Source: Deltaproteobacteria bacterium (GTDB lineage Bacteria; Desulfobacterota; Binatia; HRBIN30). From it: a DNA stretch of 36,209 bases. Below are positions 24,707 to 33,847 of the stretch, piece after piece; positions within the stretch are counted from its first letter, which is position 1, and the number at the start of each line of letters is the position of its first letter. The translations under genes and the position numbers were made by a program. The notes beneath the pieces were generated by a model. The model saw only the letters and a list, made by a program, of their open reading frames with translations, searched no databases and had not been told where the DNA came from. Where the stretch lies: contig JACQEN010000006.1 of assembly GCA_016200585.1 (NCBI GenBank), forward strand, positions 1-36,209, in the 5' to 3' direction.

Positions 24707-27700
24707 ATGCGGGCGGACCCGAGCCCAACGACCCCCGACGCGTTCGTCGGACGGACGCGCGAGCTCGGCGAGCTGCGAGCCGGATTGCGCGGCGTTCTCG
24801 GCGGCAGCGGACGCATGTTTTTGCTGGCCGGCGATCCCGGCGTCGGCAAGACGCGACTCAGCGATGAAATCAGCCGCGATGCGCAGGCGGCCGGCGCCCA
24901 AGTTGTGTGGGGACGCTGCTGGGAAGGGGGGGCGGCCCCTCCCTATTGGCCGTGGATGCAGATCTTCCGGCGCATGGCTCGCGAAGGGCTTCTACCCGAC
25001 TCGGCACGATCCCTGATGACCGACAGCGCCCTCGTCCACTTGATGCATGAGGGCCCAGACGATGCGCTTCTGCCAGTGCATCCCCCTTCCACAGATCTGG
25101 CCGACCAACGCTTTCGATTATTTGACGCCGCCACCACCTTGCTCGAGCGTGCCGCCGAAGCCCGTCCGCTGGTCCTGATCCTCGACGATCTTCACGCCGC
25201 CGATCAAACGTCGCTGCTGTTGCTTCGCTTCACCGCCCGGGCGCTGCGCGGCAACGCTTTGCTCATCGTCGCCACCTATCGCGAAATGGAGTTGCGGCGC
25301 GTGCCCGCTCTGGGGCAGGCCGTAGCCGAGCTGGCGCGCGACGGCCGCGTCCTTACGCTGCGCGGGCTGAGCCAGCCGGAAACCGCGCAACTCATCGAGA
25401 CCATTCTCGGTCGTCTGCCGGATGAATCTCTGGTGGGCGCCCTGCATGGCGCAACCGCCGGCAATCCGTTCTTCTTGAGCGAGATCGTACGGCTGATGCA
25501 GGCCGAGGGGCGCTTCGACACGACGGACGGCAAGGCCCTGACCGCCTTTACGTTGCCCAGTCAGCTGCGTGAAGCCGTGCGCCGCCAACTTGATCTGCTA
25601 TCCCCAGCCACCGCCGAGCTCATGTCCAAAGCTTCGGTCATCGGCCAGCAGTTCTCCGTTCCCGTCCTCGCTCGGGTCGCGGCTGACAACGAAGGGGAAG
25701 CACCGGCTGCCGAAGTCGATCACAGCCGACTGATCGATCTCTTGGACGATGCTATCCACGGACGGGTGATCCGCTGCATTTCGGTGGCCGGAGCGCGTTA
25801 CGAGTTTGTCCACCAGCTGATTCGCGAAGCGCTGTATGACGCCATCGCACCTTCGATGTTGCTTACGCTGCACGGCCGCGTCGGCACGGCCCTGGAGGCA
25901 CTGTACGGCGACGCCGCGGAGCGGCCGCTGGCTGAGCTGGCGCATCACTACTTGCATTCGGGATCCATCAAAGGTCTCGAATACGCCGACCGCACCGGAG
26001 ATGATGCCCTGCAACGTCTCGCCTACGAGGAAGCGGCACGCTGGTATGAAATGGCCCTCGCGGCGCTCGATCGACTGGCGCCGGACGACACGCAGCGGAT
26101 GCTGGCTCTGCGGCTCGGCCTCGGAGACGCAAGCAAGGGTGCAGCCGACTTCGAAGGCTCGCAACGCGAGTACCGGCGTGCTGCCGAGCTGGCGCGTTCG
26201 CTGCGTCTACCGGTGGAGTTTGCCCGCGCCGTGATCGGCCTGTCGCGTCCCTGGATGCAATGGCAGCCGGACCATGTTCTCGACTCTCTCCAGGAAGAAG
26301 CTCTGCGCGGTCTCGCTCAGAAGGACAGCCGACTGCGTGTTCAACTCATGGCCTTGCGGGGAGCCAACCTGTACGCCGGCGATCGGTGTCAAGCCGTTGC
26401 GCTGATTACCGACTCCGTCGCCATGGCGCGACGCCTGCAAAACGCCCCCGGCCTCAGCCTGGCTCTGCTGCTCGAGCGTTTCCGTTTGGGCGACGAAGGA
26501 CGAATCCACGAAGCGCTGGCGATCGCCGCCGAGGCCGTGACCGCGGCGGAGCGCGCCGGTGATCGAGAGATTGCCTTCAATTTGCAAATGGAGGAGGTCA
26601 AGAATTACCTGTGGCGTGGCGACACGGTTGGCGTCGATGCCGCGACCACCCGCTGTCGCGGCCTGGCCACCCTTCTGCGCCAACCGTTCTGCTTGGGGCA
26701 AGTGTTTTGGATGGACGCCATGCGTGCGGCGCTGGAGGGGCATTTCGACGAGGCCGAGCGCTGCGCCGATCGCGCCAATGCGGAGGAGAACCGCGCCGGT
26801 GTTTCGTCGCCGGTGCTGACGATCTTCCGGACTCTGTTGCGTCGCGAAACCGGTTCCAATGATGTGCTCGATGTCGAAGCGAAGATTCCCGAAGAGATGA
26901 TCGACGTGCCGCAGGTGCGTGCCATGCTGGCGGTGCTGGCTTGCGATCGCGGCGACGCGCCGACGGCGCGTTTCCATCTCGACCGCGCTGCCGGCCGCGG
27001 CTTCGCGAGCTTGGCAAACGACTGGAACGGGTCGTGCGCCGTGGCGCAACTGGCGGAAGTCGCCGCCAGGCTGGGCGCGTCGGAACACGCCCGCAGCCTG
27101 TATGATGCGTTGAAGACGCACGCCGGCCTGGCGGTTTCGTTCAGCTACCAATTCTGCCTGGGCGCGGCCGGACGCTACTTCGGGCTGCTGGCGGCGACCT
27201 TCGGGGACTGGAACCTGGCGGCCCGACATTTCGAGGCGGCACTGGCGATGAATGCCGCGATGGGTGCAAGGCCGTGGCTGGCTCACACGCAACACGAATA
27301 CGCAGCGGCCATGGCGCGTGCGTGGGAAGCGAATCCAGCCGGCGACACGCCGCAAAGCCGAGCCAAGGCAGTCGCCCTGGCGCGAGAAGCAAACGCCACC
27401 GCGCAAACCCTGGGCATGCGGCCCCTGCTGAGCCAGACAACGGCGCTTCTCGAGCAGCTCGCCACCGTGCCGCCGCGCCGGGCGGTACAGCCCCGTGCAG
27501 TTGCAGAGTCGGGCGGTGCATTCCAACGACAAGGCGACGTCTGGAAGATCACCTACGGCGGCACGACATGCCAGCTCAAAGATATGCGCGGTCTCGCTTT
27601 CATCGTGCACCTGCTGCGCCACCCCGGCGAAGACATCCACAGTACTGCCCTGGTACGGCTGGGCGATGGCGCCGACACCCAGGCGCAAGCTGGAGCGGCG

Positions 27701-28096
27701 GCAGCGACGACAGAGATACGCACCGACCTCGGCGACGCCGGCGAAGTCCTCGATCATCAGGCACGCACGGCGTACCGCCAGCGTCTCATCGAGCTGCGCG
27801 GCGAGCTCGAACAAGCCGAGGCGTACAACGACCCTGGCCGCAGCGCCGGGCTGCGCGCCGAAATCGCCTCGCTGACCGAAGAGCTGCAGCGCGCCGTCGG
27901 CCTGGGCGGACGCCAGCGCCGCTCCGGATCGCACACCGAACGCGCCCGCGTCAACGCCACCCGGGCCATCGCCGTCGCCATCCAACGCATCGCCGAACAC
28001 AACCCGGCCCTCGCTCGCCATCTCAGCGAGCGCATCAAGACCGGTACGTTTTGCAGCTATCGCGCCAACGATGAACGCATGGACTGGAACCTGTGA
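24707..28096 (+). CDS. Large STAND-type AAA ATPase regulator with unusual C-terminal domain
   Basis: 1129-residue cytoplasmic signalling ATPase. The N-terminal AAA_16-like NTPase has 'FVGRTRELGELRAGL', Walker A 'GDPGVGKT' (42-49), Walker B 'PLVLILDDLHAAD' (~154-166) and sensor 'LLIVATYREMELRR', as in MalT/LuxR-family and adenylate-cyclase-linked ATPases. Then a helical, TPR-like middle (about 400-920). No LuxR HTH is seen at the end; instead residues ~939-1129 form a two-part domain: 'VWKITYGGTTCQLKDMRGLA' and 'ERARVNATRAIAVAIQRIAE', separated by a ~75-residue coiled coil ('RQRLIELRGELEQAEAYND'). The same domain occurs alone in the small protein at 30599. A TonB receptor gene starts 63 bp downstream, suggesting control of or response to uptake. 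Confidence 0.9.
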   Translation: MRADPSPTTPDAFVGRTRELGELRAGLRGVLGGSGRMFLLAGDPGVGKTRLSDEISRDAQAAGAQVVWGRCWEGGAAPPYWPWMQIFRRMAREGLLPDSARSLMTDSALVHLMHEGPDDALLPVHPPSTDLADQRFRLFDAATTLLERAAEARPLVLILDDLHAADQTSLLLLRFTARALRGNALLIVATYREMELRRVPALGQAVAELARDGRVLTLRGLSQPETAQLIETILGRLPDESLVGALHGATAGNPFFLSEIVRLMQAEGRFDTTDGKALTAFTLPSQLREAVRRQLDLLSPATAELMSKASVIGQQFSVPVLARVAADNEGEAPAAEVDHSRLIDLLDDAIHGRVIRCISVAGARYEFVHQLIREALYDAIAPSMLLTLHGRVGTALEALYGDAAERPLAELAHHYLHSGSIKGLEYADRTGDDALQRLAYEEAARWYEMALAALDRLAPDDTQRMLALRLGLGDASKGAADFEGSQREYRRAAELARSLRLPVEFARAVIGLSRPWMQWQPDHVLDSLQEEALRGLAQKDSRLRVQLMALRGANLYAGDRCQAVALITDSVAMARRLQNAPGLSLALLLERFRLGDEGRIHEALAIAAEAVTAAERAGDREIAFNLQMEEVKNYLWRGDTVGVDAATTRCRGLATLLRQPFCLGQVFWMDAMRAALEGHFDEAERCADRANAEENRAGVSSPVLTIFRTLLRRETGSNDVLDVEAKIPEEMIDVPQVRAMLAVLACDRGDAPTARFHLDRAAGRGFASLANDWNGSCAVAQLAEVAARLGASEHARSLYDALKTHAGLAVSFSYQFCLGAAGRYFGLLAATFGDWNLAARHFEAALAMNAAMGARPWLAHTQHEYAAAMARAWEANPAGDTPQSRAKAVALAREANATAQTLGMRPLLSQTTALLEQLATVPPRRAVQPRAVAESGGAFQRQGDVWKITYGGTTCQLKDMRGLAFIVHLLRHPGEDIHSTALVRLGDGADTQAQAGAAAATTEIRTDLGDAGEVLDHQARTAYRQRLIELRGELEQAEAYNDPGRSAGLRAEIASLTEELQRAVGLGGRQRRSGSHTERARVNATRAIAVAIQRIAEHNPALARHLSERIKTGTFCSYRANDERMDWNL

Positions 28097-28159: not shown

Positions 28160-30391
28160 ATGGGGTGGTACAAGAGAACGCAAATCGCAACGGCAGCCGT
28201 GGTGATCTTGACGATGCTGCTTCCCGCTGCCGTTGTGGCTGACGACGACGAACCGGACTCCGGCGAGGCAACCAAGAAGGAACGCAGAGAACAGGCCTCG
28301 AAGGACAAGCCAGCGCTGCTCCTCGAGCCGATCGTGGTCGTAGGCAAGCGCGACAACTCATACCTCTTCAGCGCTCCCACCTCGGCGTCGCGAATTCCCC
28401 TCGACGTCATGGACACGCCGCGCTCCGTGCAGGTCGTTCCGCGCGCCGTGATCGACGATCAGCAGGCGATCACGCCCAACGAGATCACACGTTCCGTGAG
28501 CTCCGTTCGCCCGTCCGGCGCCTGGTACGGCAACGACGAGGCGTTCATCACGCGCGGCTTCTTGCAGCAGAACGTGTACAAGGATGGTCTGCGCGGTGCG
28601 GCCATCGTCGGCTTCATCGATCAACCCGCCGCCGGCGACGTCGCTGAGCTCGACCGCGTCGAGGTCATCAAGGGCCCGGCCTCGTTTCTTTTCGGACGCG
28701 TCGAGCCTGGCGGCATCGTCAACTACATCACCAAGCAACCCTCCTTCAGCCCGGCCTACTCGCTGATGCAACGCTTCGGAAGCTACGACCTCTATCGCAC
28801 CGAAGCCGATCTCACCGGACCGGTCACCGACAATCTGGCGTATCGCCTCATCGGTTCCTACCAGCGCGGCGGCCTCTTCGAACGCTTCACCGAGGAAGAG
28901 CGTGGCTTCGGATCGGCGAGTGCGCTGTGGCGGCCGAACGACTCGACCCAGGTGCGGCTGCGTACCAGCTTTGCGTACGACGATTCCGTCTTCGCTGCGG
29001 GCTTGCCGATCGTCGATGGACGGCTTCTCGATGGCGTCGCCTACAACCAGTTTCTCGGCGAGCCATCGGTGAACAAGCGCATCTCGAGAGCGTTGGAGAC
29101 CTACGTGGAAGCCGTCCACCGGGTCAACGAATCGTTGCAACTCACGCTTCTCGGCGGCTACCAACCGGCCTGGCTGATCAACCGCGACCTCGAGCTCGGC
29201 GAGTTTCTGGTACCGGATCAAATCCCGTACTACGACCCCGACAGTCGAACCTTGGCGCGAACGCTGTACGACAGCAACTTCAAAACCCAGGACGCGCAGC
29301 TGGAGCTCGGGGCAAACCTCTCCTACGCGCCGGCGGATCTCGGTCTCGGCTGGCTGCGCGATGTACGTGGCAACCTCGTCGCCACAGCCGGCTGGGAAAG
29401 AAATGAGGCTCACGGTCCGCTGACCTTCGGTACGTCGAGCCGCGTCAACCCATTCACTCCGGTCTACCAGGGCTACTTTCTGAGCGAGGATATCCATGTG
29501 CACCAGGACCTCCACGGTGCGGCGAACGAAGTCAGCGGCGGGATCGAGAATAGCTTGCGCTGGCGCGACCGCGTCGAGCTGCTGGCCGGCGTGCGCGTCA
29601 GCTACGTCGACAGTCACGCCGCCTTCGATCTCGTGCCGGCTGAATTCTCGGAGCACGGCGGGTTTCACGAAACACGGCCGGTACCGTTCGTCGGCGCCTT
29701 GGTCCGGCCGCTGCGGCCGCTTTCTCTCTACACCAGCTACAGCGAGTCGTACTTGCCCTACCGGTTTCCTCGGCTCACGGCGCACGGCGGGCCGCTGCAG
29801 CCGGAGACCGGCTCGCAGATCGAGGGTGGGGTGCGTTGGGAGTCGTTCGATAGCCGTCTCCTGGCGACGGCCGCGATCTACCAGATCGACAAGGACCATC
29901 TCATCGCACCGGACCCGCAGGACCCGATCCATCTCGCCAACATCGGATCGGCGCGCAGCCGCGGCTTCGAGCTCGACGTCGCAGGAAGCCCGCTCCCTGG
30001 TTGGGATCTCATCGGCAGTTACGCCTACACCGACGCACGCATCACCGACTCGCCGGACGGCACGCAGGGCAACCGTCTGTTCGCCGTGCCCTACAACAGC
30101 GGCAGCCTATGGACGACCTACGAGCTGCAAACCGAGCCGCTGCGCGGCCTGGGCGCCGGCATCGGCGTGTTCTTCTCCGACTCCGTCGAGAACGACACAC
30201 TCAACAGCGCCAAGCTGCCGAGCTGGGTGCAAGCCGATGCGGCGCTCTTCTACGCGCACGAAAAGTTCGAGGCGCGCTTGAACTTGAAGAACTTCACCGA
30301 CGAGAAGGTGTTCCTGTCGCAGAACGATAGCTTCAGAGCTATCCCCGCGCCGCCGCTGACCGTGCTCGGCAGCATTTCCGTACACTTCTAA
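28160..30391 (+). CDS. TonB-dependent siderophore-type outer-membrane receptor
   Basis: 743-residue outer-membrane receptor. Signal peptide about 1-27 (ends 'AAVVADD'), then a charged linker and a TonB box 'EPIVVVGKR' (56-64). The plug domain has 'DTPRSVQVVPRAVIDDQQA', 'AFITRGFLQQNVYKDGLR' and 'LDRVEVIKGPASFLFGRVEP', which is the siderophore-receptor subtype (FhuA/FecA-like TIGR01783 style). The barrel ends in 'PPLTVLGSISVHF' with the required terminal Phe. AAGGGGG precedes the ATG. No TonB/ExbBD or inner-membrane ABC genes are nearby, so the substrate is unknown; iron chelates or another large ligand are plausible. The gene follows the STAND regulator directly. Confidence 0.94.
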   Translation: MGWYKRTQIATAAVVILTMLLPAAVVADDDEPDSGEATKKERREQASKDKPALLLEPIVVVGKRDNSYLFSAPTSASRIPLDVMDTPRSVQVVPRAVIDDQQAITPNEITRSVSSVRPSGAWYGNDEAFITRGFLQQNVYKDGLRGAAIVGFIDQPAAGDVAELDRVEVIKGPASFLFGRVEPGGIVNYITKQPSFSPAYSLMQRFGSYDLYRTEADLTGPVTDNLAYRLIGSYQRGGLFERFTEEERGFGSASALWRPNDSTQVRLRTSFAYDDSVFAAGLPIVDGRLLDGVAYNQFLGEPSVNKRISRALETYVEAVHRVNESLQLTLLGGYQPAWLINRDLELGEFLVPDQIPYYDPDSRTLARTLYDSNFKTQDAQLELGANLSYAPADLGLGWLRDVRGNLVATAGWERNEAHGPLTFGTSSRVNPFTPVYQGYFLSEDIHVHQDLHGAANEVSGGIENSLRWRDRVELLAGVRVSYVDSHAAFDLVPAEFSEHGGFHETRPVPFVGALVRPLRPLSLYTSYSESYLPYRFPRLTAHGGPLQPETGSQIEGGVRWESFDSRLLATAAIYQIDKDHLIAPDPQDPIHLANIGSARSRGFELDVAGSPLPGWDLIGSYAYTDARITDSPDGTQGNRLFAVPYNSGSLWTTYELQTEPLRGLGAGIGVFFSDSVENDTLNSAKLPSWVQADAALFYAHEKFEARLNLKNFTDEKVFLSQNDSFRAIPAPPLTVLGSISVHF

Positions 30392-30473
30392 GCGCCGGAC
30401 GCGACTTGGCGGTACATCCGGCGTGCCGGATTCGGCCGCCGAGCAGCCAAAACTCACACACCAACCATCCGTA

Positions 30474-30503
30474 CTGAACAACTGTTCAGCGCCGGGTTAC
30501 GCC
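30474..30503. repeat. 30-bp repeat copy 1 with GAACA-N2-TGTTC core
   Basis: CTGAACAACTGTTC followed eight bases later by GTTACGCC. It matches copy 2 at 31041 in 26 of 30 positions. GAACA and TGTTC are exact complements around AC, giving an operator-like inverted repeat. It lies about 95 bases before the likely start of the stand-alone domain gene. Confidence 0.75.
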
Positions 30504-30598: not shown

Positions 30599-31021
30599 TT
30601 GACTGCCAGTATTTGCGCCGCATCCACGCCCGCTCCACGTGCCGAGTCGATGGCCGCCCTTACTCCAGCTCCTCGTTCCAAGCAAATCTTCCGCCGCGAG
30701 GGCGAGTACTGGACCGTCGCCTTCGACGGCGCCCTCTGCCGCCTCAAGCATACGCGCGGCATGCAACACATGGCGAGATTGCTCAGCCGGCCCGGCGAAC
30801 GCATCGCCGCCGTGGCGCTTGTCTCGCAAGGTACATCGCCTGACGACGAAGCCGCTGCGGAACGGGCTCGGGTCAACGTCACGCGGCAGATCAGCGCGGT
30901 CTTGAAACGTATCGCCGCCTACCACCCGGCCCTCGCCGAACACCTCGCGTCGACCGTGCACACCGGCTTGTCCTGCTCCTACACGCCGGACTCGCGCCTG
31001 CCGACGCGCTGGGAGATCTGA
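30599..31021 (+). CDS. Stand-alone copy of the STAND regulator's C-terminal domain
   Basis: 140 residues if started at the TTG at 30599, which has AGAGGAGG five bases upstream; the track's ATG at 30560 and an ATG at 30650 are alternatives. From 'FRREGEYWTVAFDGALCRLK' onward it aligns with residues ~939-985 of the 1129-residue ATPase, and 'ERARVNVTRQISAVLKRIAA' plus 'HPALAEHL' and 'TGLSCSY' align with that protein's last ~60 residues. The ATPase's ~75-residue coiled-coil insert is missing. No DNA-binding helix-turn-helix is obvious. It may compete with, or act downstream of, the large regulator, and it is flanked by the two repeat copies. Function is unknown. Confidence 0.8.
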   Translation: MTASICAASTPAPRAESMAALTPAPRSKQIFRREGEYWTVAFDGALCRLKHTRGMQHMARLLSRPGERIAAVALVSQGTSPDDEAAAERARVNVTRQISAVLKRIAAYHPALAEHLASTVHTGLSCSYTPDSRLPTRWEI

Positions 31022-31040
31022 GGGCAAAGGCAGGCGGCGA

Positions 31041-31070
31041 CTGAACAACTGTTCCACGCAGAGTTACGCC
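31041..31070. repeat. 30-bp repeat copy 2 with GAACA-N2-TGTTC core
   Basis: CTGAACAACTGTTC then CACGCAGA and GTTACGCC; differs from copy 1 only within the middle eight bases. It lies 19 bases after the stand-alone domain gene and about 100 bases before the DUF1566 gene, a suitable place for an operator of that gene. Confidence 0.75.
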
Positions 31071-31167: not shown

Positions 31168-31896
31168 ATGAGAAGATCAAGTCTCAGTGTGGCGGCGGGA
31201 GTCACTCTGCTGTGGGCGGGGACGGCTCTGGGGACGCCAACGCCGCAGCAGAGCTGCGACTACGCCCGCATCACGGCGTGGAAGGTGTACCAGTCGTGCG
31301 TCGATGCGGTCGTCGCGAAGGACGCCAAAGGAATCGCTTTCGATTCATGGAAGGCCTTTTGGAAGTGCCGGCATGCCTATTTCAAGAAGTGGACGGCATT
31401 CCAGTCCAAAGCGTCACTCGCCGGCAGCACGTGCGTCGGCGCCCGATTCTCTGACGCCAGTTTTGTCGTCATCGACAATCTGACCGGGCTCTATTGGGAA
31501 AAGAAGTCGGACGACAGCTCTGTGTCGGACAAGGACAATCAATACAGCTGGGGCAGCGGCGGGTTTTCCACCGGAGGTGCCTTCACGACGTTTGTACATT
31601 TCCTGAACAATGGCAACCCCTTGGTCAACGATTGGCGGCTGCCGACCCTCGCCGAGTTGCAAACCCTCCTGCTCGACTACCCGTGTACGGGCGGCGGCGG
31701 CGGCACGGGATGTGAGTGCACAGGACCGTGCGTCGATCCTTTGTTCAACAACACGCAGTCTAGCTACTACTGGTCGGATACGCGGTACGTTCCCGACGGA
31801 GGCCGCGCTTGGGTCGTGTCTTTCGGCACTGGTCTCGTCATTCCTTTCATCCAGACCGACACCGACTACGTGCGGGCCGTCACCGCCGGCTTTTGA
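31168..31896 (+). CDS. Secreted DUF1566 / Lcl C-terminal-like domain protein
   Basis: 242 residues with a signal peptide ending near 'WAGTALGTPTPQ'. After a Cys-containing helical section ('YARITAWKVYQSCVDAV'), the DUF1566/Lcl domain appears: 'VIDNLTGLYWEKK', 'NDWRLPTLAELQTLLLDYP', 'SYYWSDTRY' and 'AWVVSFGTG' then 'YVRAVTAGF'. This fold is found at the end of Legionella collagen-like adhesin and in many exported proteins of environmental bacteria. A Gly- and Cys-rich loop ('CTGGGGGTGCECTGPC') interrupts it. AAAAGGAGGGGC is a very strong RBS. It precedes a surface S74 protein by 58 bp; they may act together outside the cell. Confidence 0.88.
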   Translation: MRRSSLSVAAGVTLLWAGTALGTPTPQQSCDYARITAWKVYQSCVDAVVAKDAKGIAFDSWKAFWKCRHAYFKKWTAFQSKASLAGSTCVGARFSDASFVVIDNLTGLYWEKKSDDSSVSDKDNQYSWGSGGFSTGGAFTTFVHFLNNGNPLVNDWRLPTLAELQTLLLDYPCTGGGGGTGCECTGPCVDPLFNNTQSSYYWSDTRYVPDGGRAWVVSFGTGLVIPFIQTDTDYVRAVTAGF

Positions 31897-31954
31897 TCGA
31901 ACATTTGTCCCCCAGTTTGGTGGTTTCCGCGACAAGGGAGGGAAAGGAGATCTC

Positions 31955-33847
31955 ATGAAATCGTTGACATCGATCGCAATTGCCAGCCTCCTGGCTGGTG
32001 CACTGGTTCCGCGAAACGCCGATGCAGTGACCGCCACATTGGTCGGCGACACCTTCACCATCTACTCGAGCCCGAATGCGAACAAGGGTAAGGTCGCCAC
32101 ACTCGAGGTCGCCGGCCCGCCGGCGCTGAGGAATACATACGTCAAGTTTGACCTCAATCCCTTGCCCGCCGGCATCACGGGAAGCGACGTGGCGAAAGCC
32201 ACGCTGACGCTGTTCGCCAACAAGGTGATTACAGGCGGGTCGTTCGACGTGCTGCAGCTGACCAGCGGCTGGGACGAGCTCTTGGTGACGTGGGACAACG
32301 GTCCGCTCTTGGGCACGACTGTGAGCTCGGTCGCCATCGACCTCGCCGACAAGAACACATTCAAGGCCTTCGACGTGACCGCTGCCGTCAAGGCCTGGGT
32401 CGACGCTCCGCTGACTAACAACGGCTTGTTACTGGTGGATTTGTTTGATGGCCTGAATGTCAAGTTTGATAGCAAGGAGAACGGTTCAAAGAGCCATCCG
32501 CCGCAGTTGGAAATCACCCTGGCGGCAACCTCGGCGACGATCGTCGATGGGTCGGTGGGCAATGCCGACCTGGCGAACAATGCTGTGACCAGCGCCAAGA
32601 TCGCCGATGCCTCGGTGGGCAATGCTGATCTCGGCGGGGACGCGGTCACCAGCAACAAGATCCTCGACGGCTCGATCACCGGCGCTGACGTCGCCGACGG
32701 CTCGTTGCGCAACGCGGACATCAACTTCAGCCCGCTCACCGCAGGCCAATACAACACCGGCGTTGGCGAGTCTGCCCTTCAATCTATAGGGAGTGGCATC
32801 GGATCGTCCAACACGGCCACGGGCTACCACGCGCTGACCTCCACCATAAACGGCTTTTTCAATACAGCCACGGGAGCCAGAGCACTGGCTTCCAACATTT
32901 ATGGCACTTCTAACACAGCCACAGGCGCTGATGCACTTGGTCTCAATGACGGGGGCGACGACAACACGGCCGTAGGAAACGCGGCGTTGGGAGGTAATGT
33001 TGTAGGCTCCGCCAACACGGCCATTGGTCGCAGTGCGCTGGAGAATAATAGCACCTCCTACAACACCGCGGTCGGTTTCAACGCACTAACTTCAAGTACA
33101 TCCGGCGGCGAGAATATTGCCGTCGGTGCGAACGCTACCGATGCCCTCACCACCGGCTCCAACAATACGGCTATCGGCACAGGGGCCTTTGGCAATCTCA
33201 CGGCCGGCACGGGCAACATCGCCGTCGGTTGGCATGGCGGGCTGTCGGCGACCACCAACGACAACGACATCTACATCGGCAGCACGGGCGCTGCCGCGGA
33301 GAACAACACGATTCGCATAGGCAACACCTCGCACACCAAGACCTTCATCCGCGGTATCTACGGCCAGACCACCGCGAACACCGCCATTCCTGTGCTTGTC
33401 GATAGTTTCACCGGCCAGCTCGGCACCGTCTCTTCGTCGCGCCGCTTCAAGATCGATATCCACGACATGAAACAGGCCAGCAGCGCGCTGCTGAAGCTGC
33501 GACCGGTGACCTTCAAGTACAAGCCCAACCTCGACCCGTCCGGCACCACGCAATACGGGCTCATCGCCGAGGAGGTCGAGCAAGTCATGCCCGACCTCGT
33601 GGTCTACGACAAGGACGGCAAGCCGGAGACCGTGAAGTATCACATCCTCGCCTCGCTGCTGCTCAACGAGCTGCAGAAGCAGTACCGCACGCAGCAAGCG
33701 CAGCAGAAGACTTTGGCCGCGCAGCAAGCAGAGCTGCGCTCGGTGCACGCCGAGAACACAGCTTTGCGTGCAGCGGTCGACGAGATCCAGGTCTTGAAAG
33801 CTCGCCTGGCGGCCTTGGAGGCGGGATCGGTGGTGGCGGCGAAGTAG
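31955..33847 (+). CDS. Surface protein: DNRLRE domain, YadA-head-like repeats, peptidase S74 chaperone
   Basis: 630 residues. Signal peptide 1-24 ('LVPRNADA'). Residues ~25-195 resemble a DNRLRE/CBM96 beta-sandwich ('DVTAAVKAWVDAP', 'NNGLLLV'). Then come short 'VGNADL'/'VTSAKI' repeats (~197-260), about ten YadA-head-like 'NTAIGTGAF'-type repeats (~265-435), and a peptidase S74 intramolecular chaperone (~490-585): 'SSSRRFKIDIHDM' with the Ser/Lys dyad, 'LRPVTFKYKP' and 'YGLIAEEVEQVMPDLV'. A coiled coil ends the protein. Such chaperones trimerise fibres and then cut themselves off. I chose ATG 31955 with AAAGGAGA; the track starts 115 codons too early. Architecture suggests a trimeric secreted fibre, not a phage tail, as no phage genes are near. 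Confidence 0.88.
   Translation: MKSLTSIAIASLLAGALVPRNADAVTATLVGDTFTIYSSPNANKGKVATLEVAGPPALRNTYVKFDLNPLPAGITGSDVAKATLTLFANKVITGGSFDVLQLTSGWDELLVTWDNGPLLGTTVSSVAIDLADKNTFKAFDVTAAVKAWVDAPLTNNGLLLVDLFDGLNVKFDSKENGSKSHPPQLEITLAATSATIVDGSVGNADLANNAVTSAKIADASVGNADLGGDAVTSNKILDGSITGADVADGSLRNADINFSPLTAGQYNTGVGESALQSIGSGIGSSNTATGYHALTSTINGFFNTATGARALASNIYGTSNTATGADALGLNDGGDDNTAVGNAALGGNVVGSANTAIGRSALENNSTSYNTAVGFNALTSSTSGGENIAVGANATDALTTGSNNTAIGTGAFGNLTAGTGNIAVGWHGGLSATTNDNDIYIGSTGAAAENNTIRIGNTSHTKTFIRGIYGQTTANTAIPVLVDSFTGQLGTVSSSRRFKIDIHDMKQASSALLKLRPVTFKYKPNLDPSGTTQYGLIAEEVEQVMPDLVVYDKDGKPETVKYHILASLLLNELQKQYRTQQAQQKTLAAQQAELRSVHAENTALRAAVDEIQVLKARLAALEAGSVVAAK

Follow-up and report, generated by a model that had tools for sequence, protein, structure and literature searches.

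A probable surface-fibre operon in a Binatia bacterium, with a candidate winged-helix regulator and a class-wide DNA box that may be linked to it

S74 domains are best known from phage tails and one animal transcription factor. What is such a domain doing at the end of an exported bacterial protein, and what controls the gene that encodes it? The question arises from 36,209 nucleotides of a probably uncultured Deltaproteobacteria bacterium of the class Binatia, order HRBIN30 (assembly GCA_016200585.1, contig JACQEN010000006.1, positions 1 to 36,209), a stretch that we call the window. A preliminary description had singled out a 630-residue fibre protein encoded there, and proposed that an exported DUF1566 protein and upstream regulator and receptor genes might join it in a controlled surface-fibre locus. 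The idea of a controlled, non-phage locus is supported by our analysis, but the control is better assigned to a 140-residue winged-helix gene, absent (like the 31-bp repeat that flanks it) from that description, than to the STAND-type ATPase gene further upstream, and the TonB-dependent receptor has no demonstrated part. On balance we think it probable that the locus is a surface-fibre operon under a local, dedicated winged-helix regulator whose family is paired with a DNA box, and that the fibre is trimeric and self-cleaving. The features at issue are as follows.

30473-30503, + strand: repeat copy 1, ACTGAACAACTGTTCAGCGCCGGGTTACGCC, a direct repeat ending 96 bp before the winged-helix gene
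30599-31021, + strand: standalone winged-helix regulator, 140 aa, TTG start behind GAGGAG; an intact open reading frame between the receptor and Lcl_C genes
31040-31070, + strand: repeat copy 2, ACTGAACAACTGTTCCACGCAGAGTTACGCC, a direct repeat ending 98 bp before the Lcl_C gene
31168-31896, + strand: exported Lcl_C/DUF1566 protein, 242 aa, Sec-type signal peptide; Pfam Lcl_C E 1.8e-17, above cut-off
31955-33847, + strand: exported fibre protein, 630 aa; the gene starts 58 bp downstream of the Lcl_C gene and has its own ribosome-binding site

The two copies of the 31-bp repeat are identical at 27 of 31 positions, and the best match between the two intergenic stretches after shuffling was 20 of 31. 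A search of the 5.6 Mb genome with up to 3 mismatches (the assembly is fragmented, with 369 contigs, and 85% complete) returned exactly two matches, and the reversed control none. The core of copy 1, TGAACAACTGTTCA, is a near-perfect inverted repeat, and it is followed by a third half-site, GTTACGCC. The repeat is probably an operator common to the regulator gene and the Lcl_C-fibre operon.

In the mechanism that we propose, the winged-helix protein would bind the 31-bp sequence before its own gene and the copy before the operon, setting both together; we infer its binding to DNA, as activator or repressor, and the co-transcription of the operon. Two exported proteins would result, a small lectin-type Lcl_C protein and then a trimeric fibre. 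The CBM96 domain of the fibre would be likely to bind an acidic polysaccharide, the stalk and head repeats would build the shaft, and the S74 domain and coiled coil would align and fold three chains before S74 cuts itself off ahead of S494. Across the class, members of the regulator family, standalone or fused to STAND proteins, would be paired with a three-half-site box upstream of genes for exported proteins.

The 140-residue protein is a standalone copy of the winged-helix domain found at the C-terminus of the STAND protein, where a coiled-coil-like insertion interrupts the domain. Within the order, six standalone homologues are 34-49% identical to it in alignment, and the closest in searches, on contig C50 of genome G004, is 51% identical (genomes, contigs and loci are cited by our own G, C and L handles). 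The AlphaFold model (predicted local distance difference test, pLDDT, 81) has the strand and helix order of an OmpR-type winged helix, and a profile search gave a weak match to response regulators (E 0.43). No family match was found in Pfam, NCBIfam, PHROGs or PADLOC, and a receiver domain was not present by Pfam. The winged-helix domain, in either form, occurs in 60 of the 148 genomes of the class. The standalone form is rarer. The 15 genomes from the order hold seven copies, and the other genomes of the class about three; among 395 genomes sampled across the phylum, the only copies found were the two of the window genome itself.

In the order, six of the seven standalone genes lie ahead of a gene whose product is exported (p 0.002 against a background of 26%), and the test is conservative because the background sample includes some loci targeted through S74 fibres, which biases it upward. 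The exported products are two S74 fibres (one of them after Lcl_C), a stalk-type protein, a beta-propeller and two beta-helix proteins. At G000:C258 several hundred bases separate the standalone regulator from the first exported gene. A protein with predicted membrane segments (L055:7685-9292) on the same contig ends in the same winged-helix domain, divergent from the standalone copy.

A second line of evidence is a box, CGTCAC-N3-GTGAC-N7-GTCACGC, first spotted by eye upstream of other standalone regulators (L020, L055, L053). When the class was searched for this canonical box with at most 2 mismatches, 63 matches were found versus 21 for the reversed pattern. The excess lies in the 60 genomes with the winged-helix domain (49 matches versus 9 in the control), whereas the 88 genomes without it had 14 versus 12 (Fisher p 0.005). 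These half-site and box counts were tallied by the author from the search tables, not by an independent program, and gene calls and signal peptides came from simple scripts. Boxes that are intergenic with 0-1 mismatch, or that have 2 mismatches beside a regulator, are mostly placed 10-154 bp before a signal-peptide gene (at least nine cases) or directly before a standalone regulator. The exceptions are the second site at L256, where the next intact gene is not exported, and L263, where the exported gene is 640 bp away. A matrix built from 14 sites gives 20-23 bits next to regulator genes at L052, L124 and L169, three loci used neither to build it nor to choose the pattern, and 41 reversed controls score 5.7 or less. 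Example loci with a box upstream of exported-protein genes are L273, L257, L266, L269, L250 and L251.

How do the window repeats relate to this box? Their half-sites stand at the same offsets (2, 10 and 22) but are spelled GAAC, GTTC and GTTAC. Near the closest regulator homologue, at G004:C50, two GAAC-type boxes with 1 and 2 mismatches lie within 9 kb of the regulator gene. The recognition-helix regions of the window and G004:C50 regulators read VTRQISAVLKRI and VSRSVSAVLRRL, and those of the others are VTKRIKA-like. These observations are suggestive of a subfamily, made up of the window and G004:C50 regulators, that has a changed half-site, with the window repeats as its diverged box. On the G004:C50 contig, the DNA upstream of the standalone regulator gene also seems to encode a FixJ/LuxR-type response regulator (L051:7520-8750), itself preceded by a GAAC-type box.

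Taken over the class, the evidence tips modestly towards a class-specific system in which the winged-helix domain, standalone or STAND-fused, recognises an inverted pair plus a third half-site before genes for exported, mostly repeat-built surface proteins. Half-sites would have co-evolved with subfamilies of the regulator (GTCAC/GTGAC in general; GAAC/GTTC in the window and its closest relative), and the fibres would exchange S74 and Lcl_C at one fixed joint.

Several results weigh against the proposed control of the operon. On the canonical matrix the window repeats reach scores of -23 and -19, and what relates them to the box is their spacing, the shared GTYACGC end and the copies at G004. 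A search of the order with the GAAC-type pattern listed 27 matches and a control of similar size, so that it is informative only at G004:C50. On the + strand, the stretches from boxes to genes gave no match to a sigma-70-type promoter. Foldseek searches with the regulator model were led mostly by OmpR/PhoB effector domains, but at E 0.1-1 and TMt no higher than 0.56. The class has only about ten standalone genes, the three outside the order have no exported neighbour, and the signal-peptide rule in the neighbour test is home-made. Finally, most S74 fibre loci in the class stand alone, without Lcl_C or regulator genes nearby. The repeats were also tried as canonical boxes in their own right and rejected, no window site scoring above 0.5 bits.

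Some of these facts favour the strongest rival, namely that fibre and Lcl_C form an ordinary two-gene surface operon, and that the winged-helix gene and the repeat are neighbours with no bearing on it, or the result of a promoter duplicated by chance. Neither neighbour is found at most S74 fibres in the class, the repeats fail to score as canonical boxes, and the genome holds just two copies of them. We consider this possible though unlikely; against it, the copies end at nearly the same distance, 96 and 98 bp, before both genes, their core is an inverted repeat, the G004 homologue has two similar boxes, and five other standalone regulators have the box directly upstream.

A second rival concerns which protein regulates the operon. 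The genes upstream of the first repeat are these.

24707-28096, + strand: STAND-type ATPase, 1129 aa; Pfam AAA_16 at the N-terminus, E 5e-26; winged-helix profile E 7e-32
28160-30391, + strand: TonB-dependent siderophore-type receptor, 743 aa, 64 bp after the STAND gene; TIGR01783 above cut-off; Pfam Plug and barrel

The operon might really answer to the STAND ATPase, with the small winged-helix protein either an accessory or a degenerate copy. The same domain does end the STAND protein, STAND and standalone genes are adjacent in G014:C48 and G014:C69, and elsewhere STAND genes of the winged-helix family adjoin boxes. In the window, however, the STAND gene is 2.5 kb away with the receptor gene between, and the standalone gene, which the repeat flanks, is both intact and conserved; moreover, G000:C258 and G013:C16 keep a standalone regulator beside exported genes with a box upstream. 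We therefore judge it unlikely that the STAND protein is the regulator, though it may add a signal input, its relatives lying beside boxes elsewhere. The co-occurrence of fibre and STAND regulator that the preliminary description offered as a check was seen at two places only. Among the S74-fibre loci examined in the class, the winged-helix family stands beside a fibre in the window and at G014:C48, both with a standalone protein directly upstream of the fibre operon and a STAND protein with the same C-terminal domain, and most fibres are alone. The STAND gene was accordingly dropped as a general partner of S74 fibres. The fibre loci L129 and L143 have a STAND-like gene without the winged-helix domain.

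We now turn to the fibre, in which a signal peptide is followed by a CBM96/DNRLRE domain, a repeat stalk, nine head-type motifs, the S74 domain and a long C-terminal helix.

31955-32026, + strand: signal peptide, about residues 1-24; Sec-type, by eye and by a home-made heuristic rule
32027-32518, + strand: CBM96/DNRLRE beta-sandwich, residues 25-188; Pfam CBM96 E 1.8e-18, NCBIfam DNRLRE_dom E 4.9e-23
32531-32740, + strand: stalk of D-G-S-V / N-A-V type repeats, about residues 193-262, seen in the sequence and as a 60-nt DNA repeat; pLDDT below 50 in the monomer model
32801-33274, + strand: head-type beta repeats of about 17 residues each, about residues 283-440, from motif spacing and regular short strands in the model
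33434-33601, + strand: S74 intramolecular chaperone; Pfam Peptidase_S74 at residues 494-549, E 1.2e-12, above cut-off; dyad S494/K499
33638-33841, + strand: coiled coil C-terminal to S74, residues 562-629, one continuous helix in the model

The Ser-Lys dyad of S74 is intact. The signal peptide, the DNRLRE-like sandwich and the S74 chaperone agree with the preliminary description, as does the exported DUF1566 protein next door, whose signal peptide was likewise called by eye and by the home-made rule. The description of the repeats as YadA-head-like holds in part: the motif N[TI]A[x]G occurs nine times between residues 286 and 421 at intervals of 16-17 residues, but no YadA_head match was found in Pfam at E<=0.1. 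The label is an analogy, and kinship to YadA is unsupported. No anchor barrel of the YadA kind was matched in Pfam at the same threshold, and the C-terminus is S74 plus coiled coil. The model of the full-length monomer (pLDDT 60, predicted TM-score 0.35) is of low confidence and of use locally only. Foldseek matched it to a chondroitin-sulfate-binding CBM (8wab; TMt 0.60, 22% identity), among TGF-beta prodomains of the same sandwich type, and to an alginate-binding CBM (7vbo); these matches agree with the CBM96 assignment and hint at an acidic polysaccharide as ligand.

Does the S74 domain cut? Residues S494, R497 and K499 are invariant across 17 aligned sequences. In MyRF the catalytic dyad is S587/K592, with scission before the serine, and in endosialidase NF it is S911/K916; cleavage of MyRF requires the trimer, which is driven by a coiled coil after the domain (PMC8326128). 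The five-residue spacing of S494 and K499 is the same as in both, which makes S494 the likely nucleophile and predicts scission between S493 and S494 (nt 33433/33434). By this analogy the cut would fall before S-S-R-R-F-K, one residue upstream of the S-R-R-F-K site proposed earlier. Both trimerisation and autocleavage of the fibre are what the conserved residues and homology lead us to infer. S74 might instead have lost self-cleavage here and merely trimerise the fibre, a role that the helix and dyad would fit by themselves; Lcl_C stands in for S74 in genomes G010 and G011, so a working fibre may not need cleavage. We find this improbable, as the invariance of the three residues is expected under selection for catalysis.

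G010 and G011 belong to the same family as the window genome, and in them the stalk and head are fused to Lcl_C, not to S74 (L330:178-2019 on G010:C283; L111:916-2823 on G011:C103). The switch occurs at the S74 joint: the window fibre reads ...FTGQLGTVS|SSRRFK and the G010 fibre ...GSGQLGTTAS|HTARFRDNGDGTVTD. S74 and Lcl_C are thus alternative end modules on one kind of fibre. The Lcl_C domain of Legionella is trimeric and binds glycosaminoglycan (PMC11162425), and for this reason a trimerising role is probably common to Lcl_C and S74. Apart from these head-Lcl_C fusions, a conserved pairing of Lcl_C and S74 genes was sought elsewhere in the class and not seen. The 242-residue Lcl_C protein of the window has a cysteine-containing N-terminal domain, a region common to its paralogues in the same genome, and no collagen-like region, there being no Gly-X-Y run and no Pfam collagen match. 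Paralogues at G000:C226 and G000:C212 are 49-55% identical to it over almost the full length, with two closely spaced Lcl_C matches at C226. In this class, surface proteins with S74, with Lcl_C or of other kinds share a recurrent exported domain (FTYQGQL...) at the N-terminus (L053:2715-4922, L111, L330, L026:5271-7919), which had no Pfam match in the case tested (L053).

A phage origin, in which the fibre would be left over from a prophage or phage-like particle and S74 would mark a tail protein, is highly improbable and largely refuted: PHROG tail-spike and tail-fibre families do match the repeats and S74, and 71 phage records match about half of the protein, but among those listed identity does not exceed about 33% and coverage of the query stays below 80%, relatives in the class are closer (42-54% over the head-S74 part, with many loci in some genomes), and the fibre has a signal peptide with no other phage genes adjoining. 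Phage tail proteins normally lack a signal peptide. The absence of phage genes asserted in the preliminary description was confirmed when flanking genes were compared with PHROGs and NCBIfam: no phage-type gene was found, and the PHROG matches were to the fibre's own domains, plus an uninformative one to the TonB receptor. On this basis and the comparison with phage records, prophage origin was rejected. The remainder of the window appears by inspection to be ordinary chromosomal metabolism, with a recG-like gene at the end, and a search for plasmids gave none.

Matches to the fibre at E<=1e-10 were found in 24 of the 148 genomes of the class. The CBM96-head-S74 architecture was seen in the window and twice in G014. 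Many copies occur in two genomes of one genus, G033 and G035, whose S74 fibre genes are mostly at separate loci (e.g. L126, L128-L133, L135-L137).

Known systems share parts of this arrangement. Phage S74 tail spikes and fibres (endosialidase NF, the S16 long tail fibre 6f45, SPO1 gp2.52) have the same Ser-Lys spacing and a repeat shaft before S74; unlike them, the window fibre has a signal peptide, an N-terminal CBM96 domain and no virion genes. The ICA domain of MyRF is the same self-cleaving trimerisation domain outside phages (PMC8326128), but in a eukaryotic transcription factor rather than a predicted extracellular fibre. Legionella Lcl also has Lcl_C in an exported protein, whereas the window protein lacks collagen repeats and has a different, cysteine-containing N-terminal domain, and related genomes fuse Lcl_C to a fibre head. 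YadA trimeric autotransporter adhesins are likewise exported fibres with short repeated beta motifs in the head; in the window fibre, trimerisation is assigned to S74 and not to an anchor barrel. On the regulatory side, the SARP-LAL regulators such as PimR, and AfsR, link an OmpR-like winged helix to an ATP-binding regulator and use multi-half-site operators, that of PimR having three direct heptamers (PMC5930380). In the window family the winged helix is C-terminal or standalone, BTAD had no match in the STAND protein and the small reading frame had no Pfam match at all, the box joins an inverted pair to a third half-site, and the targets are exported proteins.

The open-access literature that we searched held no description of the regulator, the box or the fibre type. 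The regulator, box and target module are apparently undescribed, while the fibre itself belongs to a known kind. In related bacteria many other exported proteins go with this winged-helix family and its DNA sites, which suggests a surface-protein switch not described before. S74 here caps exported fibres that are numerous in some bacteria, and its replacement at the same joint by Lcl_C, a glycan-binding type of domain, marks where the fibre would end after cleavage. The box predicts targets for the regulator family and so gives a testable handle on surface-protein control in little-studied bacteria, and the half-site difference between subfamilies would be a case of regulator and operator changing together.

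Two further observations concern fibre genes and their surroundings. A contig of a TM6 bacterium (L028; CAMDFF010000020.1) carries at least four clustered S74 fibre-type genes. In the window, a four-helix-bundle suffix protein (TIGR04258; 33887-34489, - strand) is encoded between the fibre gene and the recG-like gene.

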